Assembly: GCA_024743215.1 (NCBI GenBank)
Contig: JANSWZ010000001.1
Coordinates: 186,001 to 250,000 of the forward strand
Direction of reading: 5' to 3'
DNA from: Alphaproteobacteria bacterium
GTDB lineage: Bacteria > Pseudomonadota > Alphaproteobacteria > Rhizobiales > GCA-2746425
DNA length: 64,000 nt
Under the pieces are notes generated by a model. It searched no databases and had not been told where the DNA came from. It worked only from the letters and a program-made list of their open reading frames with translations. Positions 10,673 to 22,917 of the stretch are shown here, one piece after another (position 1 is the stretch's first letter; each line of letters opens with the position of its first letter). Both the position numbers and the translations under genes were made by a program.

Positions 10673-12067
10673 ATGATTGCGTCACACCACGTCGCTGTCA
10701 TTGATATCGGCAAGACCAATGCAAAACTGGCGATTGTCGATCCGCAGAACTGGCAGGAATTGGCGGTCCGCACCATGGCCAATCGGGTTTTACCCAGCCC
10801 GCCCTATCCGCATTTCAACGTGGAAGCCATCTGGGCGTTTCTTCTGGATTCCATGCGTGAGTTGAATGGGCAGTATCCAGTGGCCAGCATTTCCATCACC
10901 ACTCACGGGGCCTCCGGCGTACTGCTGACTGAGCGTGGCGAGCTTGCCATGCCAGTGCTTGATTATGAGTATGACGGGCCCGACAGCATGCGCGATGCCT
11001 ATGAGGCATTGCGGCCTGATTTTTCTGAGACCGGTTCACCAAAGATCGCTATGGGATTGAACCTTGGAGCCCAGTTCTTCTGGCAGATGCAGGCTTTTCC
11101 GGATCTTGCCACCAATGTGCGGCACATGCTTACCTATCCGCAATATTGGGCGTATCGTCTGACGGGGGTCATGGCGAATGAGGCCACGTCATTGGGCTGT
11201 CATACGGATTTGTGGAATCCCTGGAAAGGCACGTTCTCGTCGATGGTCGAGACCCTGGATTGGACGCCTTTGATGGCTCCGTTCCGCAAGGCGACAGATG
11301 TGCTTGGGCCGATGCATGCGCATCTGGCAGATCAGTTGGGTCTTCCAGCCGCAGTGCCTGTGTATTGCGGAATTCATGATTCCAACGCCTCGCTGTTTCC
11401 GCATTTGATGCAACGGCAAGCGCCCTTCAGTGCTGTATCAACAGGAACCTGGGTCATCTGCATGAGCGTTGGCGGTAAGCAGATTGAGCCTGATCCAATG
11501 CGGGACACGCTGGTCAATGTGAACGCTTTTGGTGACCCGGTCCCGTCCAGCCGCTTTATGGGTGGCAGGGAATTTGACTTGCTTATGGCGGATCGCAAGG
11601 CTGTAGCCTCCAAAAATGCTGTGTCGCGGGTTCTGGACGACAAAATCATGCTGTTCCCATCAGTGGAAAGCCAGACCGGGCCGTTTCAGGGTTGCGAACC
11701 GAAGTGGACAGTGGAGCCGGATACGCTGAATGATGACGAGTATTACGCTGTCGTCTCGTTCTATCTGGCACTGGTGACCAGGGTTTGCCTGGATCTTTGC
11801 GGAGCGGATGGACCCATCATTGTGGAAGGGCCATTCGGTCAAAACAAACTTTATCTGCAGATGCTGGAAAGTGCCTGCGGCAGACAGGTCATCCGATCTG
11901 AAGCAAGTGCAACGGGAACCAGCATTGGTGCAGCGATGCTGACAAACAACAACCCGGATGAAGGATCGCAAGAATCCTTGCCCGCCGAATTTGCCGCAAC
12001 GGATGAGCGTTTCGTCGCCTATGCCCAATTGTGGCAAGAGCAGCTAATTGCCAGAGCAACCGACTGA
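10673..12067 (+). CDS. rhaK: Rhamnulokinase-type FGGY sugar kinase (RhaK)
   Basis: A 464-residue FGGY-family kinase that should phosphorylate L-rhamnulose to the substrate of RhaD. The N-terminal phosphate-binding strand VAVIDIGKTNAKLAIVD, the central CGIHDSNASLFPHL and the STGTWV adenosine-side motif are visible. The ATG at 10673 is preferred over the TTG three bases earlier. In R. leguminosarum RhaK is also needed for activity of the rhamnose ABC transporter, an unusual kinase-transporter dependence that may apply here. It is the last rha gene and ends 28 bases before a convergent gene. Confidence 0.92.
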   Translation: MIASHHVAVIDIGKTNAKLAIVDPQNWQELAVRTMANRVLPSPPYPHFNVEAIWAFLLDSMRELNGQYPVASISITTHGASGVLLTERGELAMPVLDYEYDGPDSMRDAYEALRPDFSETGSPKIAMGLNLGAQFFWQMQAFPDLATNVRHMLTYPQYWAYRLTGVMANEATSLGCHTDLWNPWKGTFSSMVETLDWTPLMAPFRKATDVLGPMHAHLADQLGLPAAVPVYCGIHDSNASLFPHLMQRQAPFSAVSTGTWVICMSVGGKQIEPDPMRDTLVNVNAFGDPVPSSRFMGGREFDLLMADRKAVASKNAVSRVLDDKIMLFPSVESQTGPFQGCEPKWTVEPDTLNDDEYYAVVSFYLALVTRVCLDLCGADGPIIVEGPFGQNKLYLQMLESACGRQVIRSEASATGTSIGAAMLTNNNPDEGSQESLPAEFAATDERFVAYAQLWQEQLIARATD

Positions 12068-12095
12068 GTTTTACCTGTCCGATTCCCTGATCTTA

Positions 12096-12362
12096 TCAAG
12101 CAAAAGAAATATCGTAGTCATCCTCATTGTCTTCCACGGTCAGCGTACCGCTCGCGCGTATCTCAATATTTTCATCATTTTCATATCCAGGCACTGTAAA
12201 CGTGGCCTTGTACTTGCCGGTGGGGACATTGGCAGTCTCGTTGAACTGAAAACCATTGACGCCGCCCCACCGTGCGCCTCCACCATGGCCAATGCCTTGT
12301 AAGGTGACGGTCAGAATGTTCTCTTTGTTGGTGCCTGTGGTTGCGAGTGTGACTGTGGGCAT
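12096..12362 (-). CDS. Unknown 88-residue beta-rich protein, last gene of the XRE-linked module
   Basis: No family is recognised. From the ATG at 12362 (AAGGAA upstream) it encodes MPTVTLATTG followed by alternating hydrophobic/polar residues, a Gly-rich turn (GIGHGGGARWGG) and an acidic C-terminus (VEDNEDDYDISF). This pattern suggests a small beta-sandwich. There is no signal peptide or membrane segment. A longer in-frame start at 12410 gives a basic extension that looks like leader sequence. It is 58 bases downstream of the 355-residue protein on the same strand and is likely in its operon. Confidence 0.6.
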   Translation of the reverse strand: MPTVTLATTGTNKENILTVTLQGIGHGGGARWGGVNGFQFNETANVPTGKYKATFTVPGYENDENIEIRASGTLTVEDNEDDYDISFA

Positions 12363-12420
12363 GGGATTTCCTTTCTTTTTGCATTTGTGCAGGTTTTGTT
12401 GGCTAGGCACTGAGGCAGGG

Positions 12421-13488
12421 TCAGGTGCCTATGAGTGGATAGGTTTCTATTTCCACGGCGATGATTTCGGGCGATTTCTGGGCTTGTGTGTAGGCGATTT
12501 TCGGCATGCTGCCGGTCAAGTCTGAGCTTGTCTGATCAAGGGCCAATGAAATGCCCAATAATTCCAATTTACGGTTCTGAGTGATGCTGGATTGTTGGGA
12601 CTGGGTGAGGTTCTGGTCGCCAGAAAACTTGAGCGAGACATCAAAGCCCACGTAAAATGCTGACACCCGTCCGCGCAGCAGGCCGCTGGACCCGAAGAAC
12701 ATCTCAGGGTTCTTCATATAGCTCTGGCCGACTTGCAGCAGGCCAGACTCAAACCAGTCACCGGGCGAAAGGGTAATCTTGCCCCAATTCTTTGCAGTAA
12801 TTGAAACAGCACTGAATGTTCTCAGCAGGCGTTCTGGCTGGGTGGCGGGGTGGTTTGTTATCAATTCACGGGCCACTGCGCTTGGTTGGCCTCCAGCGTT
12901 CAGCGATATCCGTATGGTCTGGGGCCTTTGTGGTGGTTTGGTAATTGCTTCATTGATCCAGTTTTTGCTGGTTTGACTGGCAACCCAGTTAGGTGCCCAT
13001 CTCAGCACACCAGCTGGCATGATCTTGGTCCATCCGGGGGGAGCCGTTCCGCTTGCAGGACTGGATTTTGGCGCGGTGATGCGTTGCTTTGCCTGTTGCA
13101 GGCCCACAGAGGCAGGGAAAGTTGCCACATCAATCATATTGAGAAACAGGCGGTAGTTTTTGCTGAAACTATCGGAAGAACTGGCAAATTCGCCGCCGTT
13201 TTGGGTGGATTGGGGCAGATTGTCAGCCAGATAAAACTGGTTCGTCGGAATTGACCCGATGGCCGATGTTGACCAATCCCAATTCTGTGAGGGAACCAGC
13301 ACCTGGTTTCTGCCGGTTAGGGGTGTGGCCGACCGGGAGGGGGGAGGCGGCGGAGCACGGCGCGCCATTGCAATTGTCGGAGCGGTTGGCACTCTCATTC
13401 TGTTGGTGATTGGCGCTGCTTCCAGATCATCATCTGCGATCGCGAATTGTGCCAACTCGTCCAGAAATGGCGTAAAAATTCCATCCAT
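12421..13488 (-). CDS. Unknown 355-residue protein, paralogue of the upstream 437-residue protein
   Basis: No known family is recognised. The ATG at 13488 has a GGAG site eight bases upstream. No signal peptide is present. A proline run (RRAPPPPPSRS, about residue 44 onward) precedes the main body. From about residue 145 it aligns by eye with the protein encoded upstream at 13547-14860: APPGWTKI against APRGWTKV, GVLRWAPNW against GVLEWQPSF, and ITLSPGDWFESGLL against VLITPGAWYNGGFL. A following segment (FFGSSGLLRGRVSAFYVGF) also aligns. The C-terminal half looks beta-rich. The paralogy implies a shared fold and possibly a hetero-oligomer. Function is unknown. Confidence 0.7.
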   Translation of the reverse strand: MDGIFTPFLDELAQFAIADDDLEAAPITNRMRVPTAPTIAMARRAPPPPPSRSATPLTGRNQVLVPSQNWDWSTSAIGSIPTNQFYLADNLPQSTQNGGEFASSSDSFSKNYRLFLNMIDVATFPASVGLQQAKQRITAPKSSPASGTAPPGWTKIMPAGVLRWAPNWVASQTSKNWINEAITKPPQRPQTIRISLNAGGQPSAVARELITNHPATQPERLLRTFSAVSITAKNWGKITLSPGDWFESGLLQVGQSYMKNPEMFFGSSGLLRGRVSAFYVGFDVSLKFSGDQNLTQSQQSSITQNRKLELLGISLALDQTSSDLTGSMPKIAYTQAQKSPEIIAVEIETYPLIGT

Positions 13489-13546
13489 TCTGTCAACTCC
13501 TCAAACAGGTTCGGCGCGTACGCCGAACCCAAATTGTTCTATCAAG

Positions 13547-14860
13547 TCAGGGTTTTTCAGTTCCGGGAAAGCCTACCGTGACACCAAGGATCACGGGGTC
13601 ATCGGACGTAGAGCCGCCGGTGACAGTGGTAGAGTTGCCCGTGGTTGACACATCATGCTGGTAATGGCCGCCTGAGCCACCAAAACTGAACGGTCCGATC
13701 CGCAAACCTGCGGAAGCGCTGATGGATTGTTCAAAACTTTTATAGGTGCTGCTTTTCATCGTGATCGAGAAGGAAGGTTTGTAAGCAACAACCAGCCCGG
13801 TCACCATGGTTGAGCAAATGCCGTTTGCACCAAACAGCGGGTGATCGCCGCCGGTCGACGAATAGGGCTGCAGGATGCTGTAACCCGTTCCCTGGGTGCC
13901 CGCATTCGCCATTTGTTTGAGGAACCCACCATTGTACCAGGCGCCGGGCGTGATCAGCACATTCGTTGCTGATTGCAACTTCACAGTCGCAGTGACGGAG
14001 TTATCTGACTTTGTGATGTTTGTTTCAGACCATTTTCCGCTTGCATAAACACCCCAGAACGGTGTGCCGTAGGAGACATTTGCTCCCGCCCAGGATTTGG
14101 TTATGGAACTGTCACTTTTGGAGGCATCCAGTGTGATTGACTTTTCACCTATGGTGCCTTTGGTCAGTTCCTGACGCCAGCTTTGACTCGAAGTTGAAAT
14201 GGTGAAACTGGGCTGCCATTCCAGCACTCCAGCTCCGTTGGCCACTTTGGTCCATCCGCGAGGTGCGTCGCCGGCGCTTGGCGAACTGGTTGGGCGTGCC
14301 ATGAGTGCCAATGCATCCGACAGTTCCGTTGGCTGGTTTGCAGCATTCAGAGACTGTATCTGCTTGAGAATTGCATCCGCCTTTTTGGTCCAGGTTTCCG
14401 CCTCCGTTGCATAGTTTGAGCCAGGGCCAGCCATCCATTCAGCAATGGAGGGATATTGCGCCTCAAAGATTACGCCGCCATTTTGTTTTGCGGTCAGGTA
14501 GGCTGTGTTGGCGTTTGTCCAGGTTTTCGTGACCTCATTCTGTGCTGCAGTCACATTGTCAGATAAGTCTTTGATTTGCTGTTCAATTTCCGGGCTGTTG
14601 TTAAAGCCAACGTGGCCAAAGATTTGACGGTAATTGTCAAATAAAGTGGATGTCCCTACACCGCCAAACGTAGCGACCGGACTGTAGACCGGCGCGGCAC
14701 TCATGAGCTGATAGGCCTCAGGCGCCAATTGACCGGAAGCTGCGACAGGCCAGTTGAATGATTGGGGATTGCCGAGCATCTGGAAGTAGTTGTTGCCAGT
14801 GCCGAGAATCTGTTTTGTGATTTGATCGTAGCTTTGGCTGAATAGATTTTGATTATCCAT
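13547..14860 (-). CDS. Unknown 437-residue protein with helical N-terminal and beta-rich C-terminal halves
   Basis: The ATG at 14860 is preceded by GGAG. There is no signal peptide or lasting hydrophobic segment. Residues about 85-195 look helical and partly coiled (for example PEIEQQIKDLSDNVTAAQNE). From about residue 205 a Ser/Thr/Gly-rich, beta-like region follows, ending in a Gly/Ser/Thr-rich stretch. That second half shares APxGWTK, GVLxWxP and ITPGxWYxxGFL with the 355-residue neighbour. A helical half joined to a beta half with amphipathic Ser/Thr strands is reminiscent of secreted effectors or pore-formers, but nothing proves this. No family is recognised. Confidence 0.72.
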   Translation of the reverse strand: MDNQNLFSQSYDQITKQILGTGNNYFQMLGNPQSFNWPVAASGQLAPEAYQLMSAAPVYSPVATFGGVGTSTLFDNYRQIFGHVGFNNSPEIEQQIKDLSDNVTAAQNEVTKTWTNANTAYLTAKQNGGVIFEAQYPSIAEWMAGPGSNYATEAETWTKKADAILKQIQSLNAANQPTELSDALALMARPTSSPSAGDAPRGWTKVANGAGVLEWQPSFTISTSSQSWRQELTKGTIGEKSITLDASKSDSSITKSWAGANVSYGTPFWGVYASGKWSETNITKSDNSVTATVKLQSATNVLITPGAWYNGGFLKQMANAGTQGTGYSILQPYSSTGGDHPLFGANGICSTMVTGLVVAYKPSFSITMKSSTYKSFEQSISASAGLRIGPFSFGGSGGHYQHDVSTTGNSTTVTGGSTSDDPVILGVTVGFPGTEKP

Positions 14861-14892
14861 GATCGTTCTCCATTGTTAAGCCCAAAGTGGTT

Positions 14893-15210
14893 TCAGGCGG
14901 CCGGTGCGGCCCCGCCATTGTTGATTGGAGCAGGTGGTGGTGGAGGAGGAGCTGTGAACACGAACACCAAAGGCGGATCGCTCAAATTGCTCTCAACCAG
15001 AACGTTGGAAATGAAACCCCCCATGCCATCCACCTGGATGCCATTCACCTGGTAATTATGGTTGTTGTTTAGAAACCCACCCGGCGGAGGATTTTGTGGA
15101 ATGGCGTTACAGGCCACCCAATCGGGGCCTGCAAAACTTGCCTGGTGTTGTGTCACCCACTGCATCCCATTGTTGAGATTGTGAACGACAACACTGTGAA
15201 TTTGCGGCAT
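14893..15210 (-). CDS. Unknown 105-residue Asn/Pro-rich protein, first structural gene of the module
   Basis: No family is recognised. The ATG at 15210 is preceded by AGGGAG with six-base spacing, so it is probably expressed. The body (MPQIHSVVVHNLNNGMQWV onward) looks like a small beta-sandwich with several Trp/Asn/Gly turns. The C-terminus is a proline run plus Asn/Gly/Ala tail (TAPPPPPPAPINNGGAAPAA). There is no signal peptide. It lies 32 bases upstream of the 437-residue gene on the same strand and downstream of an XRE regulator. Confidence 0.62.
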   Translation of the reverse strand: MPQIHSVVVHNLNNGMQWVTQHQASFAGPDWVACNAIPQNPPPGGFLNNNHNYQVNGIQVDGMGGFISNVLVESNLSDPPLVFVFTAPPPPPPAPINNGGAAPAA

Positions 15211-15376
15211 AGCTAACTCCCTTCAGCTGTAAGATATCCCTCAAGATAGATGCATTCTTGGGTCGAATTTTAACAAGTTTGCGCAATTTATAATTGCATG
15301 AAGGTGCGTCTGGTCGTCCTGCTAGGTGTTGCGCAGGGCGCAAGATAAGCGGCAAAATGATGCGCCGGATGCATTG

Positions 15377-15715
15377 TCAGTCGTCGGTAGCCGTTGATAT
15401 GACCTCAACGAGGTGGATCATCGCTGAGGTTACCGCTGGCGGATGCCTTTGCAGAAGCCGCGCCAGTTCCATGGTCAAGAGAACATCGTTGGTTGGAAAT
15501 GATGTTGTTTCCAGATTTTCGCCCAGAAACAGCCAATCCATGGAAACGCCAAGGAAGCGGCATAATGAAATGCCGTGCTGCATGGAAATGGGCTCTCCCT
15601 TTTTCCAACGACTGACCGTGCTTTCATTCACACCCAACGCGTGGGCAATTGCATAGGACTTCTGGAACCCCCGGATTCTTAGGATTGTACACAGTCGATT
15701 CCCCCAATGCGCCAT
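15377..15715 (-). CDS. XRE-family (cI-like) helix-turn-helix regulator
   Basis: A 112-residue protein with an HTH_3-type domain at about residues 15-65: QKSYAIAHALGVNESTVSRWKK is the helix-turn-helix, followed by GISLCRFLGVSMDWLFLGE, a typical end of the XRE fold. The remaining 45 residues are a short helical tail, perhaps for dimerisation. It is the most upstream gene of the same-strand set 15715-12096 and is separated from the next gene by 166 bases, so it may autoregulate and control the four unknown genes. There is no nearby integrase or phage structural gene. Confidence 0.8.
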   Translation of the reverse strand: MAHWGNRLCTILRIRGFQKSYAIAHALGVNESTVSRWKKGEPISMQHGISLCRFLGVSMDWLFLGENLETTSFPTNDVLLTMELARLLQRHPPAVTSAMIHLVEVISTATDD

Positions 15716-15951
15716 GTTTTTCCAGCCCCCATTTTTCGTTTCAAAGATGGGCAGGCATATTCTCAGACGTGTGCATAAGAAAATTATACGATTTTAAATG
15801 GAAATAATTTTGAGGTGATTGGGAACCTGGAATCCGCTGTCAGGCCTCAAAACCGGCCTGGATGCAATCGATCACAATAGTGTGACTCATCCATGAGCGC
15901 GCGTGATCCGTAACTCCTTTAAGACGTTGTGTAACAAAAAGGATTCACTTT

Positions 15952-16623
15952 ATGACTTCCAGGATTTCAGGTCTTGCAGCACTCATCGCCATGTCTGCTT
16001 CACTCGCCGTGGCACCGGTTTCGCTGGCAAGCGCGGAAACCGTCGCATTTGATGGTGGTTGGAAATCTGTAAATTTCAGATCAATACCTAAGACAAAATA
16101 TGGTTTTGGCGGAGGAACTCTTTCCATTGAGGCCTCAAAGAGTTCATCAGTGATCTATAAGCCTGTCCCGGAAGCTTCGCGTGATGCGACCAACGCCAGT
16201 TGGAACTGGTCGGTTCAATCGTCTGTGCCCCCTACAAATTTGGCCAAAAAGGGCGGAGATGACCGGAACATTGCCTTGTATTTCGTGTTTACCGATCAGA
16301 AGACGGCCCGCCGTGCCGGAAAAAATCCGAATATCAAGAGCCTTTTGACAAAACGCAGCAGCCGCATGCTCATTTATGTGCACGGCGGTCAGCACGGTGC
16401 AGGTAGTTATGTACCAAGCCCGTACTTCTCTGGACGCGGCACCACCATCGTCAAGCGCGGTGCAGGGACTGGTTCGTTTTCCGAAAATGTTGATCTGGCA
16501 GCAGACTATCGCCGCGCATTTGGAACTGAACCAGAAGTTCTGGTCGGTTTGGCGGTATCGTCGGATTCCGACGATACCGGAAGCAATTCGCGATCTTCGC
16601 TGAGCTCAATTTCACTGAATTGA
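15952..16623 (+). CDS. Secreted DUF3047-like protein
   Basis: 223 residues with a clear Sec signal peptide (cleavage near ASA-ET, residue 28). The body has features I associate with DUF3047: WKSVNFRSIPKTKY, a WSV strand, KKGGDDRNIALYFVF and a closing region rich in Ser/Asp. The role of the family is unknown; the product is presumably periplasmic. The ATG is preceded by AAGGA at eight bases. The last 25 codons contain a perfect 11-base inverted repeat (16554-16578). It is convergent with the L,D-transpeptidase gene. The DUF assignment is moderately sure. Confidence 0.75.
   Translation: MTSRISGLAALIAMSASLAVAPVSLASAETVAFDGGWKSVNFRSIPKTKYGFGGGTLSIEASKSSSVIYKPVPEASRDATNASWNWSVQSSVPPTNLAKKGGDDRNIALYFVFTDQKTARRAGKNPNIKSLLTKRSSRMLIYVHGGQHGAGSYVPSPYFSGRGTTIVKRGAGTGSFSENVDLAADYRRAFGTEPEVLVGLAVSSDSDDTGSNSRSSLSSISLN
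16554..16578. repeat. Perfect 11-base inverted repeat inside the 3' end of the DUF3047-like gene
   Basis: GGTATCGTCGG at 16554-16564 and its exact reverse complement CCGACGATACC at 16568-16578 are separated by ATT. It encodes part of the Ser/Asp-rich C-terminus and lies 45 bases before the stop. It would fold into a very stable hairpin on either strand. It could act as a transcription or mRNA-decay barrier between the convergent genes; no T-run follows. Confidence 0.6.
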
Positions 16624-16641
16624 ATCCAGACTTTAGGGCGT

Positions 16642-17091
16642 TCAGCGCTGGATTTTGATCTGGACGTTTGAACGCCCATATTTTTTGACAAGCTTGTAGA
16701 GGCGCTTTGCATTGCTTGTGTGCAGGCGAACACAACCGTGGCTGGCCGGGCGGCCAAGACGGCTAACATGGTTTGTGCCATGAACTGCGTAGCCACGATG
16801 GAAGAATACCGAATAGGGCATTGGCGCCATATTGTAACTGCGTGAATGCCACATCTTGTGCGTGCGGGTTGGGCGGTAGCTGCCAACCGGTGTGCGATAT
16901 CCGCTCCGACCTGTTGATACTTTCCAGGAATGTCTGGGTACACCGTTAATGTAAACGCGCATCTTTTGATCAGAGATATCAACCTTGGCGACAACTTTTG
17001 CAGCGTCGGCTTTGCCGATGCTCAACGGCAGGGCGAGCAACAGGCTGCAAGCGAATAACATTGCAGTCTTTTTGAAACTGGAGAACGGCAT
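16642..17091 (-). CDS. L,D-transpeptidase (YkuD domain), periplasmic
   Basis: 149 residues. A Sec signal peptide is predicted to end near KADA-AK (residue 30). The YkuD catalytic motif is complete: HGTNH (104-108) followed by SHGC (117-120) and VRLH, giving the nucleophile Cys120. Enzymes of this type form 3-3 cross-links in peptidoglycan or attach outer-membrane proteins to it; which one applies here is not visible. It is a minimal single-domain form. AAGGATCC precedes the ATG. It is convergent with the DUF3047-like gene. Confidence 0.9.
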   Translation of the reverse strand: MPFSSFKKTAMLFACSLLLALPLSIGKADAAKVVAKVDISDQKMRVYINGVPRHSWKVSTGRSGYRTPVGSYRPTRTHKMWHSRSYNMAPMPYSVFFHRGYAVHGTNHVSRLGRPASHGCVRLHTSNAKRLYKLVKKYGRSNVQIKIQR

Positions 17092-17186
17092 AGTGGATCC
17101 TTATCGAAAACTTCGGCTGGACGCACACTAAATTCGGCTTCTTTATGTTAGGTAAATTCTGTAACACTTTGTGATTAATATAAAAT

Positions 17187-17543
17187 TTAGGATGTTTCGT
17201 TGCTGGAGGCGCACGTGATGCACAGTCTGACTGAAGGGTCGACCGCCAGTCTCTTAAGGGCGATCTCTTCGCCACAACTCGTGCAATAGCCAAACTCGCC
17301 GTCTTCCATCCGGCTCAGTGCACCAATGATGTTTCGCAAATCTGTGTCACGCTTGCGCTGTTGCGCCTGCGACATGGCCTGGACCTGCATGGCATCAATA
17401 CGCGACAGGCGCCCGACAGATTGCTGATCCAGGGGAACAGGTGCCCGGTCTGCTTCGGTTTGCTCTGCCGCCAACTCCAGCACTGCGCGCTGCTGCAGCA
17501 ATTCCTTTTTGAACGCGGCGATTTGTTGAGTGGTTAGCGGCAT
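17187..17543 (-). CDS. TraR/DksA-type C4 zinc-finger protein
   Basis: 118 residues from the ATG at 17543. The N-terminal two thirds are helical (QQIAAFKKELLQQRAVLELA and following). The C-terminal zinc finger has four cysteines in the order YCTSCGEEI and LCITC. DksA/TraR proteins bind in the RNA polymerase secondary channel and modulate initiation, but short members like this are poorly characterised. No clear ribosome-binding site decides the start; a longer form from 17606 would add 21 residues unlike the family. It probably stands alone. Confidence 0.82.
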   Translation of the reverse strand: MPLTTQQIAAFKKELLQQRAVLELAAEQTEADRAPVPLDQQSVGRLSRIDAMQVQAMSQAQQRKRDTDLRNIIGALSRMEDGEFGYCTSCGEEIALKRLAVDPSVRLCITCASSNETS

Positions 17544-17771
17544 GGCACCAGTTGCTATCATCAGTGAAATCAATCGAATTTGTCGCAGAGTAGGCTCTTG
17601 TATCACGAACGCACAATTCCAACCTGTGACTTTGAAAGTTCAACGGGGCAAACCAATTCTCCTTATCGAAAAGAAACGGGCTGGGCATCGGCTGCCTAAA
17701 CACGAAAAATTGTGGCGCTGACGGGTGGCCTCAACCGGCAATTTGTTGAAAAAGAGCGCGCGAAATTATAA

Positions 17772-17793
17772 CAAAAGGTGATTCTACCTTTTG
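17772..17793. promoter_or_regulatory. Inverted repeat just upstream of the NnrU-family gene
   Basis: CAAAAGGT (17772-17779) and ACCTTTTG (17786-17793) form a perfect eight-base inverted repeat with a six-base spacer, ending four bases before the ATG at 17798. It could be an operator or an RNA hairpin that masks the start. No Shine-Dalgarno sequence lies between it and the ATG, so a folded RNA would directly affect translation. The role is inference. Confidence 0.45.
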
Positions 17794-17797
17794 CAGC

Positions 17798-18391
17798 ATG
17801 GGGCATTCTTTCATGACGCTACTGATCATCGGGCTCATTCTGTTCCTGGGAATCCATTCAACACGGATTTTCTTTGAACCTGTTCGAGTCTGGGCCATCA
17901 ACACTTTCGGCGCTGGCAGTTGGCGGGCGATTTACACGATCCTGAGCGTTGCAGGCCTGATCCTGATTGTGATGGGCTTCAGCCCGGCTGCAGAAAACGC
18001 GAGTGTTGTCTGGGTGCCGCCATTTGCATTGCTGCATGTGTCTGCGCTGCTGACGCTGCTGGCATTTGTGTTTGTGGCAGCGGCCTATCTGCCCGCAGGC
18101 CGTATCAAAGCAAATCTGAGACACCCCATGACTGTCGGCGTTCTGGTCTGGGCCACAGCGCATTTGCTGATCAATGGGATGTCACACGAAGTTCTTTTGT
18201 TTGGTTCGATTCTGCTGTGGTCGGTGCTGGTTCTGTTTGCAGCGCTGCGGCGTGACCGGCAGATGAGCCTTGCTTTTCTGGCAGGGCCTGTGCGTAACGA
18301 TTTGCTCGCCATTGTCATCGGGGCAGGGGTTTGGGCCGTTTTTGCTCTGTATGCCCATGAATGGTTGTTTGGGGTCGCACCGCTCGTTTAA
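17798..18391 (+). CDS. NnrU-family membrane protein
   Basis: A 197-residue integral inner-membrane protein with about five or six hydrophobic helices (for example LLIIGLILFLGIHSTRI and the segment LLHVSALLTLLAFVFVAAAYL). The conserved NnrU features HSTR near the N-terminus and RHPMTVGVLVWATAHLLING in the centre are present. The family was named from a gene in denitrification loci and is related to isoprenoid-linked proteins. No nitrogen-oxide genes are nearby, so its role here is unknown. An inverted repeat precedes the start. Confidence 0.85.
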   Translation: MGHSFMTLLIIGLILFLGIHSTRIFFEPVRVWAINTFGAGSWRAIYTILSVAGLILIVMGFSPAAENASVVWVPPFALLHVSALLTLLAFVFVAAAYLPAGRIKANLRHPMTVGVLVWATAHLLINGMSHEVLLFGSILLWSVLVLFAALRRDRQMSLAFLAGPVRNDLLAIVIGAGVWAVFALYAHEWLFGVAPLV

Positions 18392-18513
18392 TGTAATTAA
18401 TTCGTTTCGTGATTGCCTAAGACAGGCGCAACAGATATTGTCCGGCCAATTCTCAAGCCGGGCGCAAAATTCTGCGACACCGGCTGTCATTCGTTTTAGC
18501 AGTAAGGCCAGTA

Positions 18514-19170
18514 ATGTCTGATCAATTTGCAAGAGAGGTCGATGAAGACCTCCGCAGTGAATTTCTTAAAAGCATATGGGACCGTTTTGGCGTTTTCATT
18601 ATTGCTACGGCCGTCATTATTGTAGCAGCAACCGCTGGCTATCGCGGCTGGAGCTATTATCAGGAGCAGGCCGCCCAAAGCGCCGGCGATGCGTTCATGG
18701 AAGCTTTGCAACTTGCCGAAGACGGCGAGGATGCCGAAGCGCTGAAGGGGTTTCAGTCAATTGCGGATGGTGGTCATGAGGGTTATGCCTCTTTGGCGCG
18801 GTTCCGCATTGCTGCTGAATTGGCCAATGAGGGCAATGTGGAAGCGGCGGTTGCCGAGTTTGACCAAATTGCTGAGAATACCAAGAGCGATGAATTGAAA
18901 TCGCTTGCCCAATTGCGGGCAGGGCTTCTTTTGGTGGACACCGGCACATTGGAAGATGTTCAAAGTCGGCTTGCGGTGCTTGCAAACCCCAACAGTTCCT
19001 GGCGACACAGTGCGCGGGAATATATAGCACTGGCAGCTTATCGGGCTGGTGACCTTGAAACCGCCACAACTACATTGGATTTGATTTTAGAAGATGTGGA
19101 ATCGCTCCAAAGTGTTCGGTCACGGGCGCAGATTCTGAAAACGTTGATTGAAGGTGCGAACGCTGGTTAA
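18514..19170 (+). CDS. Membrane-anchored TPR protein (YfgM-like, ancillary to BamB)
   Basis: 218 residues. A short cytoplasmic N-terminus (MSDQFAREVDEDLRSEF) precedes one transmembrane helix (about 28-47), and then a periplasmic region of tetratricopeptide-like helices rich in Ala/Glu. This is the layout of YfgM/TPR_21 proteins, which sit beside bamB and der in many proteobacteria and associate with the Sec/periplasmic chaperone network. Here too bamB follows after 33 bases and der after that, probably as one operon. Confidence 0.85.
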   Translation: MSDQFAREVDEDLRSEFLKSIWDRFGVFIIATAVIIVAATAGYRGWSYYQEQAAQSAGDAFMEALQLAEDGEDAEALKGFQSIADGGHEGYASLARFRIAAELANEGNVEAAVAEFDQIAENTKSDELKSLAQLRAGLLLVDTGTLEDVQSRLAVLANPNSSWRHSAREYIALAAYRAGDLETATTTLDLILEDVESLQSVRSRAQILKTLIEGANAG

Positions 19171-19203
19171 GTCCGGGTTCACTGCCAGACAAAGAGCAGA
19201 TTT

Positions 19204-20601
19204 ATGAACAATAGTTACGTGAAACCGTGCAATTCAGTGTCGAAACCAACTGGCGTTCGCGGCACTTTGTTCAAATTCGGAGTGCTTGGAACTGTTCTTG
19301 TGTCTCTTGCCGGGTGCGCTGGAATCGATGTTCTTGCCGATAGCGTCAAGAGCATCAATCCGTTCGCAGAAGAAGAGCAATTGCTGCCTGGTGCCCGTCG
19401 TGAGGCTTTGCCTTCATCCGACCCATTATTGGTTTCTGGTACCAGAACGGCCTCTATCGCACCTGCTGCCACCCTGTCCAATTGGAACAATCCATCGGGG
19501 AATGATGCCAACAACCCGGGCAATGTTTCTCTGTCGGGCGGTGGTGGCAACCGTGCATGGTCGGCACAGGTTGCCGAACGTCCGGGCCGGCGCAATGTTC
19601 GCGCCTCATCCGGCCCGGTTGTGGAAGAGGGTCGGGTGTATGTCTACGATCCGGAAGGCAATGTAACGGCCTCATCACTGTCTGGTGGTGCGCGCTTGTG
19701 GCGTGTGTCCCTGAGGCCTGATGACGAAAAGCAGCCAGCACCAGGTGGTGGTATCGCATCGGGTGGCGGCTTTGTGTATGCAGCGACCGGATTCAGAGAA
19801 GTTGTTGGCTTGATTGGCCGCTCGGGTCAGGAAGTCTGGCGCTATCCGTTGGAAGAACCTGCACGTGGTGCGCCATCCTATTCCGGCGGACGGGTGTTTG
19901 TGGTGACGGCCAGCAATGAGGTCATTGCTTTGTCGGCCGCCGATGGCTCTTTGCTTTGGACCTATTCCGGCATTCCAGAAACAGCTGGCATTCTGGCAGC
20001 CTCCAGCCCCGCAATATCCGGCTCAACTGTCGTTGTGCCTTACTCATCTGGTGAAATCATTGCTTTTGACGTTGAAAGCGGTGATCCCAAATGGAGTGAC
20101 GCCGTGGTCCGGTCAGCACGCAGTCTTGCCGTATCCGGCCTGACAGACGTATCTGGCTCTCCGGTTATCGCGAATGGAACGGTTTACGCTACTGGCGTTT
20201 CGGGCCGTACAATTGCGGTCAATCTGAGCAGCGGTGAGCGTTTGTGGGAGCGGAGTGTTGGCTCCAGTTTCACACCCGTCGTTTCCGGGAACACTGTATT
20301 CATTCAGGATCTTCAGGACCGGATGGTGGCGCTTGATCGCGCTACAGGAGAAGCTCTTTGGATTACTGACTTGCCGGTTGTTCGCAAGAAGCGTTCACGC
20401 ACTGCATGGGCCGGCCCTGTTCTGGCTGGCGGCGCTTTGTGGTCTGCTTCAAGTGACGGCCAAATCGCTTCCGTTGACGCTCAGACCGGAAAATTGCTGG
20501 GCACGCGAGACGTGAACAAAGACATCTATCTCAAACCAATTGCAGCCAGTGGCAGACTTCTTTTGCTGGCTGGTGATGGAACTATGATAGCCTACAATTA
20601 A
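19204..20601 (+). CDS. bamB: Outer-membrane assembly lipoprotein BamB (PQQ-like beta-propeller)
   Basis: 465 residues. The lipobox LAGC places the lipidated Cys at residue 38 after a hydrophobic signal. The mature part is an eight-bladed beta-propeller of PQQ-enzyme-like repeats, seen as recurring GxxLWxxxL motifs such as DGSLLWTYSG, SGERLWERSV and TGEALWITDL. BamB is an accessory subunit of the BAM complex that inserts beta-barrel proteins into the outer membrane. Synteny TPR-bamB-der supports the call over a generic PQQ-repeat protein. Confidence 0.92.
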   Translation: MNNSYVKPCNSVSKPTGVRGTLFKFGVLGTVLVSLAGCAGIDVLADSVKSINPFAEEEQLLPGARREALPSSDPLLVSGTRTASIAPAATLSNWNNPSGNDANNPGNVSLSGGGGNRAWSAQVAERPGRRNVRASSGPVVEEGRVYVYDPEGNVTASSLSGGARLWRVSLRPDDEKQPAPGGGIASGGGFVYAATGFREVVGLIGRSGQEVWRYPLEEPARGAPSYSGGRVFVVTASNEVIALSAADGSLLWTYSGIPETAGILAASSPAISGSTVVVPYSSGEIIAFDVESGDPKWSDAVVRSARSLAVSGLTDVSGSPVIANGTVYATGVSGRTIAVNLSSGERLWERSVGSSFTPVVSGNTVFIQDLQDRMVALDRATGEALWITDLPVVRKKRSRTAWAGPVLAGGALWSASSDGQIASVDAQTGKLLGTRDVNKDIYLKPIAASGRLLLLAGDGTMIAYN

Positions 20602-20647
20602 GAGGATGTTCGGCGCTGTGCGTCGGCCATCTCCGGGACCCCTTTAA

Positions 20648-22063
20648 ATGTTTACTGTTGCTATCATCGGACGCCCCAATGTGGGTAAGTCCACTCTGTT
20701 CAATCGTTTGGTTGGCAAACGGCTGGCCTTGGTTGACGATACGCCTGGCGTCACTCGTGATCGGCGCTCCGGAGACGGCAAGATCGGCGACATATCTTTC
20801 AATGTCATTGATACAGCTGGCTTGGAAGAAGCGAACATAGAAAGTCTGGAAGGCCGCATGCGGGCCCAGACTGAAGCTGCTATTCTGGAAGCTGACATTT
20901 GCCTGTTTCTGATTGATGCGCGTGCTGGCGTAACGCCGGTCGATGAGCATTTTGCAGATTTTCTGCGCCTGAGTGACAAGCCGATCATCCCCGTTGCCAA
21001 CAAGGCAGAAGGCAAAAAAGGTGAGGCGGGCTATTACGAGGCTTACCGACTTGGCTTTGGCGAGCCTGTGCCGATTTCTGCAGAACATGGTGAGGGGATG
21101 GCTGACCTTTATCAGGCGATCCGGATCATCTCGGAAGCTGATAGGCCGGACGGTGAGGAAGCATTTCCCCCGGACGCAATCGAAGCTGAGGAACAGGAAC
21201 CATTCGATCCTGATGCACCTGCTGAAGAAAAACCAAGGGGGCCAATGCAGCTGGCTGTCGTTGGTCGGCCGAATGTCGGAAAATCAACCTTCATCAATCA
21301 TCTGCTTGGCGAAGACCGTATGTTGACCGGCCCGGAAGCCGGCATCACCAGAGATACAATTTCCGTCGATTGGGTCTGGAATGGCAACCCTATCCGCTTG
21401 TTCGATACCGCGGGCATGCGCCGTAAGGCAAAGGTTCAGGAAAAGCTTGAAAGATTGTCTGTCTCGGACAGTTTGCGAGCCATCCAGTTTGCCCAGATCG
21501 TGGTTGTCATGCTGGATGCAACAATACCGTTCGAAAAACAGGATCTGCAGATCGCGGCATTGATTGCCCGTGAAGGGCGCGGCTGTGTGATTGCATTGAA
21601 TAAATGGGATCTGATTGAAGACCCCGATGCAGCTCTCAAGGAACTGCGGCTTGAGGCGACACGCCTTCTGCCGCAGATGCGCGGTGTTCCGGTTGTGCCT
21701 ATTTCTGGCCTTGCAGGAAATGGCATCGATCAATTGATGAAAGCTGTCTTTAACGTATACAAAACCTGGAATGCGCGCATTTCCACGGCCAAGCTCAACC
21801 GTTGGCTGGATGGCATACTGAACCATCATCCACCCCCCGCAGTCAGTGGCCGTCGGATCAAACTGCGATACATGACCCAGTCCAAAACCCGGCCACCAAC
21901 CTTCTTCGTGTCCTGTTCACGGCCGGAAGCTTTGCCCGCTGCTTATGAGCGATATCTGATCAATGCATTGCGCGATGATTTCAAGCTGATGGGCATTCCT
22001 CTGCGGCTTATGTTCCGCAAGGGCGAAAACCCTTATGAAGGTCGTGCCAAGCGCAAGTCCTAG
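20648..22063 (+). CDS. der: Ribosome assembly GTPase Der (EngA)
   Basis: 471 residues with two tandem GTPase domains and a KH-like C-terminus. The first G1 motif is GRPNVGKST (about 7-15) with DTAGL. The second is GRPNVGKST near residue 204 with DTAGM and a standard NKWD. The base-recognition motif of the first domain reads NKAE instead of NKxD, a substitution I believe is common in alphaproteobacteria. Der is essential for 50S subunit maturation. It follows bamB after 46 bases. A 10-base-pair hairpin lies downstream of the stop. Confidence 0.97.
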
Positions 22064-22101
22064 TCGAGCATAGCAAGAAGGCTGTTCATTGTTTTGATTT
22101 C

Positions 22102-22136
22102 TTGAAACCGGTTGGTGTGAACCACACCGGTTTCAA
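22102..22136 (+). terminator. Hairpin downstream of der, possible terminator
   Basis: TTGAAACCGG (22102-22111) and CCGGTTTCAA (22127-22136) form a perfect 10-base stem, with a further TGGT/ACCA pairing inside the 15-base loop. It begins 38 bases after the der stop, where the operon should end. No U-tract follows, so it may need Rho or act as an RNA 3'-end protector. Confidence 0.55.
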
Positions 22137-22194
22137 ATGTCAGATGTGGTAGGCTGTGCGCCGAACGAGGCATGATCGGAACGGACGACTGTGG

Positions 22195-22542
22195 CTAAAT
22201 CGGTTCCAGATTTCTTGTCGGTACCCAGCCTTCGGAACCATTCCTAGCTGCACACAATGTCCAGCCATGCGTCTCATTTATGGCGAGCAATTCATCTCCA
22301 ACGGCACATGTCAGCTCCATTGCTGAAAACGCAGCGTTCGCATAATGTTTGCCGGCAGCTTGGCTAACCAAAGTGTCTGGTATCCAGCCTTGTTTTCCGA
22401 ATTGGTTTTTGGCCCAAATCCACAGGTGGCCGTCCCAATGATCGGACTTATCGGTCAACCAGATTTCCTCGCCTTGTTTCAAGGCAATTGGGTCCGGGTA
22501 ACTCGCTTTCCATTCAGTTTTCACGCGGTAGCGTTCATGCAT
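22195..22542 (-). CDS. Double SH3-like domain protein
   Basis: 115 residues from the ATG at 22542. Two SH3-like repeats are visible: the first runs from about residue 5 and ends GKQGWIPDTLV, the second ends GSEGWVPTRNLE. Each contains the ALKQGEEIW or AVGDELLAI strand expected of the variant SH3_2 fold. There is no signal peptide. The longer frame (to 22647) adds an unrelated basic extension and was not chosen. It probably has a ligand-binding role; no partner is evident. It stands alone, convergent with der. Confidence 0.7.
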   Translation of the reverse strand: MHERYRVKTEWKASYPDPIALKQGEEIWLTDKSDHWDGHLWIWAKNQFGKQGWIPDTLVSQAAGKHYANAAFSAMELTCAVGDELLAINETHGWTLCAARNGSEGWVPTRNLEPI

Positions 22543-22917
22543 TTTTGTTCCGCTTACATTTGGAGCCTGCTGCCGTTTTTTAGAATATGGCAGATGTCTG
22601 GCACAGCCAATGGCAGCAAAGTCCGGGTTGAGATGGTGTTTGCGCAATTGGTGTGAGCATATTGGTAGCTTGGGCCCTGAGTCATGCCGTCCACTAAGAC
22701 TAGAAGTGATGTCTGGCTGTCGACATCTATTGAGTTGCTGTCATGGCATGCAATTGGCCTCATCCCCGAAAGCCAAGCCAACCATTGCGGTTGCGGCTTC
22801 AGGTGCTTAGCCGCATGGCCAATACTCTCTGGTCAAGCGTAACCCAAGTTCAACATCACTGTAGCCTAGTCAGCAAAGGCAATTAGCGCGGCCCCCACGA
22901 ACAGCACGCAGTTCCAC
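22543..22917. other. Non-coding stretch between the SH3 and ricin-like genes
   Basis: About 375 bases with no convincing gene. Short open frames here have no ribosome-binding site, no recognisable motif and odd composition. It should hold the promoter of the SH3 protein gene on the minus strand. Confidence 0.5.

Follow-up and report, generated by a model that had tools for sequence, protein, structure and literature searches.

The window analysed here, a stretch of 64,000 nucleotides from an alphaproteobacterium (contig JANSWZ010000001.1 of GenBank assembly GCA_024743215.1, positions 186,001 to 250,000), carries five genes on the minus strand between rhaK and a DUF3047 gene. This arrangement had been described in an earlier sequence-only note (the original prediction, from which the names rhaK and DUF3047 are taken), and both the open reading frames and the homology breakpoints bear it out. 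The two largest products, protein A (437 amino acids, aa) and protein B (355 aa), are homologous, which the original prediction had missed, and they form the conserved core of a two-gene family. The best reading, as we infer it, is that A forms pores by way of two hairpins, while its twin B either restrains A or seeds the pore. In window numbering, the features are as follows:

12070..15870, no strand: cassette inserted between rhaK and the DUF3047 gene; limits from homology breakpoints against three genomes of the genus (G002, G003 and G001), with an uncertainty of some tens of bases
15377..15715, minus strand: regulator of the XRE/Cro type (112 aa) that heads the cassette; HTH_3 above cut-off; among five genus genomes, restricted to the two that have the module
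14893..15210, minus strand: 105-aa protein with a proline-rich tail; relative only in the sister species
13547..14860, minus strand: protein A, 437 aa, proposed pore-former; relatives across several phyla; model confidence (pLDDT, predicted local distance difference test) 69
14303..14593, minus strand: helical middle of A, residues 90-186, from model helices and alignments; absent or much reduced in window B
13955..14140, minus strand: segment H1 of A, residues 241-302, proposed membrane hairpin 1; Ser/Thr/Gly-rich with an aromatic tip
13601..13753, minus strand: segment H2 of A, residues 370-420, proposed membrane hairpin 2; Gly/Ser-rich, modelled as a helix and then strands
12421..13488, minus strand: protein B, 355 aa, paralogue of A in which the hairpin segments and helical middle are missing, from blastp to A (7e-10) and trees
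12096..12362, minus strand: 88-aa protein, ATG start; relative only in the sister species

From the XRE gene to the 88-aa gene, the intergenic gaps measure 166, 32, 58 and 58 bases, and each of the four structural genes is preceded by a purine-rich, Shine-Dalgarno-like stretch, as expected from the good ribosome-binding sites originally described. In the 88-aa gene, a GTG located 16 codons upstream of the ATG also lies in the open frame. The XRE protein matched the Pfam family HTH_3 with 28.7 bits (cut-off 23). The other four proteins, which had been thought to have no recognisable family, indeed gave no Pfam or NCBIfam match above cut-off, and their best E-value in PHROGs was only 0.31. None of the five cassette proteins matched an integrase family (Pfam, NCBIfam), the GC content of the cassette is close to that of its flanks, a scan of the cassette for promoters and terminators yielded a result not above chance, and no signal peptide could be recognised by eye in window A or B.

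Within the genus, a sister species (G002, locus L005) has all five genes in an identical order, and its homology covers window positions 12070-22626. The alignment with G003 ends at window position 11941 and resumes at 15872, with rhaK adjoining the DUF3047 gene and the module absent. The module is also absent from G001, in which the DUF3047 gene has a different flanking gene that we take to be hutU; G002 has the module and a hutU-like neighbour on the other flank. Overall, A occurs in 2 of 5 genus genomes, the XRE gene in the identical two, and the DUF3047 gene in all five. These data show that the five genes are one cassette and support its gain or loss as a block. The cassette thus adjoins the DUF3047 gene in two species whose other flanks are unlike (rhaK versus a hutU-like gene; window versus L005, L060 and L061), which implies that the site has also been rearranged. 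Between the window and G002, the ratio of nonsynonymous to synonymous substitution rates (dN/dS) was lowest in A (0.026) and reached 0.105 in B, 0.095 in the XRE gene and 0.085 in the 88-aa gene (the 105-aa gene, whose length differs between the two species, was left out); judged from these ratios, the four genes are under purifying selection.

Outside the genus, relatives of A were detected in three bacterial phyla (Pseudomonadota, Actinomycetota and Bacteroidota), on a viral contig and on one that was binned as Methanosarcinales. They include records from Methanosarcinales, Segeticoccus, Rhodobacteraceae and Chitinophagaceae, plasmids of Rhodobacter, Klebsiella (weak), Cupriavidus, Photobacterium and Sinorhizobium, further genomes of the window's class or phylum, and one IMG/VR contig. 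A/B pairs are present in scattered Pseudomonadota, one actinobacterium, the Methanosarcinales-binned contig and the viral contig, and an adjacent B accompanies A at 13 of the 17 A loci in the working set. The distribution of A is sparse: 2 of 101 genomes of relatives, 2 of 398 phylum genomes, 3 of 58 genomes in the genus of G764, and, at an E-value of 0.001 or below, 4 of 385 class genomes (own genome counted, and two of the matches having internal stops). Three weak matches with stops in the matched frame (L007 in G237, L017 in G648 and L018 in G643) were left aside, and the pair of C. necator C39 (L021) was not included in the trees, L020 and L022 presumably being close to it. Proteins A of different clades share just ~16-20% identity. 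The 105-aa and 88-aa proteins had no plasmid match and no convincing match in 142 class genomes, where matches at E-values of 0.005-0.1 lay mostly in frames far longer than the query. At the loci detected, the conserved core consists of A and B alone, and the XRE, 105-aa and 88-aa genes are local. The proposal of a module thus holds within the genus, where the genes share the same 2 of 5 genomes and seem to come and go as a block, and fails beyond it, where only A plus B, or A alone, are in common; the multi-subunit assembly headed by the XRE regulator turns out to be a local arrangement. The genes of such a module had been expected to stay together, which proved wrong for the XRE, 105-aa and 88-aa genes and not for A and B. 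A non-exhaustive literature search found no publication on the A/B family, and absence from print is not claimed.

The pair from the Methanosarcinales metagenome-assembled genome (L011:7962-10468) and the actinobacterial pair (L012:7908-10539) are sisters, with 71% identity between the A proteins and 42% between the B proteins, which suggests either inter-domain transfer or a binning error. A neighbouring gene on the Methanosarcinales contig is of the GpgS_Meth type (594 bits, below the cut-off of 700), which fits archaeal DNA, with a binning error being possible.

A comparison of the two proteins indicates what distinguishes them. A and B are tandem paralogues (blastp of B against A, 7e-10), and 30 proteins (17 A and 13 B) were aligned with L-INS-i. 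H1, defined in A as the part that separates the residue-241 strand from a conserved P-G-x-W region, is 60-65 residues long in all 17 A proteins, in which aromatic residues are flanked by S/T/G-rich stretches; in the 13 B proteins, its length is roughly 42-82 residues. The glycine, serine and threonine (G/S/T) content was higher in A than in B for H1 in 12 of 13 pairs and for H2 in 13 of 13, and for the remainder of the protein, used as a control, in 8 of 13. The maximal beta-moment of H1 did not clearly separate A from B. The helical middle is missing in window B and its nearest kin and is partly kept in the B proteins of L016, L020 and L022. Judged from the alignment, the two hairpin-like segments present in A are either missing from B or eroded there. 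Moreover, in 21 of 21 comparisons made within clades, the faster-diverging protein was B; these comparisons are not mutually independent.

The evolutionary origin of B was further examined with three trees. The first, with 30 rows, included L033_A, L010_A and L035_B and needed four changes of the A/B label; the second and third were built without these long branches (27 rows). With 283 columns, three label changes were needed, and forcing a single B clade lowered the log-likelihood by 123 (p value of the approximately unbiased test, p-AU, 2.95e-48). Because 98 of the 283 columns fall in H1 or H2, the tree was repeated without them; the remaining 185 columns again needed three label changes, and a single B clade was 91 log-likelihood units lower (p-AU 1.0e-4). 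The H1/H2-free control thus weakened the test and left its direction unchanged. On these trees, a single clade of B twins is rejected, and about three separate origins of hairpin-less twins seem likely. This polyphyly is most simply read as repeated duplication, but gene conversion within pairs could also produce it.

An AlphaFold model of window A, built with eleven A and B sequences, had a mean pLDDT of 69.2 and a predicted template modelling score (pTM) of 0.66. Its middle region contains helices at residues 90-127, 129-134, 139-143, 148-174 and 178-186. Around H1, the model has a strand at 240-245, a low-confidence stretch at 249-265 and a long strand at 290-305; around H2, a long strand (352-369) leads into a helix (370-381), followed by strands at 386-388, 391-393, 400-407 and 410-417. 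In gasdermins, as described in excerpts of a structural report (PMC10115629), beta3-beta5 with extension domain 1 (ED1) gives rise to hairpin 1 and beta7-alpha4-beta8 to hairpin 2, and in part of another source (PMC11952106) such loops are said to replace the helical bundles of MACPF/CDC proteins. The modelled positions of H1 and H2 resemble this order of gasdermin membrane hairpins. A Foldseek search of PDB with the model placed bacterial gasdermins at ranks 1-3 of 463 (E-values 0.022, 0.022 and 0.066; template modelling scores 0.15-0.17), and these matches are suggestive but not significant. A comparison of the same model with the viral library gave nothing useful.

The neighbourhoods of other A/B loci are diverse. 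In G764 (L029:294-8372 with L039), the locus at which type VI secretion system (T6SS) genes were profile-scanned, the pair lies directly after a T6SS cluster (TssF, VipB, VasE, IcmF, DotU/OmpA); a second DotU/OmpA gene is also located immediately before the pair. No T6SS gene was apparent by eye near the pair of G853 (L034), and the T6SS sheath gene VipB is absent from the window's own genome. On an IMG/VR contig (L037:1466-7634), the pair stands beside two holins, an endolysin, an Rz-like spanin and head-morphogenesis genes, and it may be either phage cargo or host DNA at the end of a prophage. Together with the plasmid contexts, the T6SS and lysis-gene neighbourhoods are compatible with toxins. 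At L014 and L022, the neighbours include a response regulator of the NarL type and a kinase with HisKA_3. At the former (L014:7107-10520), a lone Bacteroidota A lies between the response regulator and the histidine kinase, and a nearby 105-aa gene appears by eye unrelated to that of the window. The Sinorhizobium A (L036:6353-8983) is overlapped, and then followed, by an 876-aa frame without a Pfam match, and a lone A on a conjugative plasmid of Klebsiella michiganensis (L010:7134-8934) neighbours a TRL-family protein, with a phage-lysozyme protein ~4 kb upstream.

The best explanation at hand, held only tentatively, is that A forms pores by means of the H1 and H2 hairpins and that B is a hairpin-less antidote or regulator that caps A assemblies. 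Soluble A would oligomerise and assemble on a membrane, where H1, with its aromatic tip, and H2 would refold into two membrane beta-hairpins per subunit in the style of gasdermins, MACPF proteins and CDCs. B would retain the scaffold that packs against A without the hairpins, and could thus join or cap A assemblies and halt them as a self-derived antidote or regulator, with the XRE gene regulating the cassette and the small proteins serving as local accessories. The antidote version is preferred because B has no inserting segments, evolves faster and is absent at some loci. The Photobacterium B has, by eye, a signal-peptide-like stretch at its start, which a periplasmic antidote could have. 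The pore-forming set guessed at originally gains indirect support from the paralogous pair, the two Ser/Thr/Gly-rich segments and the gasdermins in the Foldseek list, although those matches fall below significance. A broader claim, that a new family of two-hairpin pore-formers extends across bacteria, an archaeon and a virus, and that tandem duplication and hairpin stripping repeatedly built an antidote whose fast-evolving copy caps or poisons the pore, is doubtful as a whole.

Several observations weigh against A as a pore-former restrained by B. Besides the Foldseek E-values, the 50 rows listed by VIA-align all fall on the helical middle (residues 74-190) and none on the proposed pore core, and PADLOC gave one weak match (E-value 0.042) in 1 of 11 members. 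B aligns poorly in H1 and its lengths there are rough; in one pair (L009), the G/S/T content of H1 is 32.8 in A and 33.3 in B, and a short FWGLW turn is retained in the B proteins of L029, L034 and L037. Long branches meet in the trees, and the three label changes can also be explained as one gain and two losses. At L010, L014, L033 and L036, A occurs without another family frame (E-value of 1e-3 or below, 12-17 kb around), suggesting that B is not needed everywhere. Finally, neither window A nor window B has a signal peptide recognisable by eye, and a T6SS sheath gene is missing from the own genome, so that neither feature points to a route of export.

Other explanations should be considered. 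A and B might be subunits of a filament, an inclusion body or a surface structure, with the Gly/Ser-rich segments serving as packing or sugar-binding loops. Such a non-membrane assembly would suit the lack of any direct sign of membrane activity and of a significant fold match, as well as the two additional small proteins of the cassette; it is rendered rather unlikely by the nearly constant length of H1 among A proteins so divergent between clades, by the aromatic residues between S/T/G-rich flanks, and by the lysis, T6SS and mobile-gene neighbourhoods. Less probable still is an obligate two-component pore, in which B would bind the target membrane or nucleate A like the long subunit of the CDC-like proteins (CDCLs). 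The presence of an adjacent B at most A loci, the purifying selection acting on both genes in the genus, and the adjacent paralogues with divided roles that excerpts of the CDCL literature describe would all agree with it; however, four A genes lack B, and B, unlike the CDCL subunits in those excerpts, has no presumed hairpins and does not form one clade. Bacterial gasdermins are known as executors of abortive infection, that is, of self-killing (PMC9079055), and A could be a gasdermin-like executor that is silenced by B and freed upon phage attack. The top of the Foldseek list, the patchy spread and the lack of a signal peptide by eye are in line with this. The cassette, however, contains no protease family, A has no N-terminal cysteine, the PADLOC match is single and weak, and the pair itself is carried by a viral contig, which together make this role quite improbable.

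If A is indeed a pore-former, it would add to the gasdermin/MACPF kind of giant-pore proteins a family that does not have their sequence hallmarks and occurs in bacteria and apparently an archaeon. The repeated rise of a hairpin-less twin would then amount to a rare experiment of nature in which a pore-former gains its own regulator, and the contrast between A and B poses a direct question, namely whether the loss of hairpins turns a subunit into an inhibitor. Whatever the function, a five-gene module of unknown role has given way to a two-gene family that is well delimited and has relatives open to investigation.

Gasdermins are marked by a core of twisted beta-sheet whose two extension segments turn into hairpins, by a short autoinhibitory peptide at the C-terminus and by an adjacent gene for an activating protease, and most bacterial members have a conserved palmitoylated N-terminal cysteine. 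None of the 17 A proteins has a cysteine in its first 50 residues (several starts being chosen by hand), and the only cysteine of window A is Cys349; no protease family was found in the five cassette proteins (Pfam, NCBIfam), the neighbours of other loci being scanned only in part. A may resemble bacterial gasdermins (such as PDB 7n52 and 7n50), given its top three Foldseek matches, which are not significant, and a similar succession of strands flanking two segments, disordered or helical, that recall ED1 and ED2. It differs in length (437 aa versus chains of 240-255), in its extra helical middle, and in having a hairpin-less paralogue as a partner. RCD-1 of Neurospora comprises, according to part of its description (PMC10989679), two diverged and interacting versions of one gasdermin-like pore-former. 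RCD-1 is fungal and consists of antagonistic alleles, whereas A and B are a tandem pair with a stripped member.

Aerolysin-like proteins, in the passages available from PMC5654971, have a five-strand pore-forming region with one insertion loop. Window A has no Pfam match, and its model suggests two segments rather than one. The pore-forming Ssp4 effectors of T6SS were considered as a model for A and dropped, since these proteins are helical according to excerpts of PMC12669606. Binary insecticidal proteins were likewise considered as a comparison for the two small proteins. Like phage-borne and T6SS effector-immunity pairs, A and B form a two-gene unit that lies, at single loci, by phage lysis genes or a T6SS cluster. 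They differ from such pairs in the paralogy of their two genes and in the lack of a T6SS sheath gene in the own genome.

The MACPF signature, in the form [YW]G[TS]H[FY]-x6-GG, occurs in none of the 30 A and B sequences, and the MACPF Pfam profile had no match in 13 A or B proteins. Likewise, the YGR motif was found in none of the 30 sequences, and PF01289 had no match at an E-value of 1 or below in 13 proteins of the family, window A and window B among them. In CDCs and CDC-like proteins, this motif has the form F/Y-F/Y-Xn-YGR (excerpt of PMC7527733). CDCLs are described, in parts of two reports (PMC11169675, PMC11952106), as adjacent paralogue pairs of which one binds the membrane and the other forms the pore. 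Their short subunits branch apart from the long ones, and hairpins are extended in the predicted pore form of the long subunit as well. As with the long and short CDCLs of Bacteroidota in those parts, A and B are neighbouring paralogues that differ in length (at 13 of 17 loci); in contrast to CDCLs, B is without presumed hairpins and is not one clade. A is not filed as a gasdermin, a CDC/CDCL or a MACPF protein, the sequence hallmarks tested being absent, but it may work like them.

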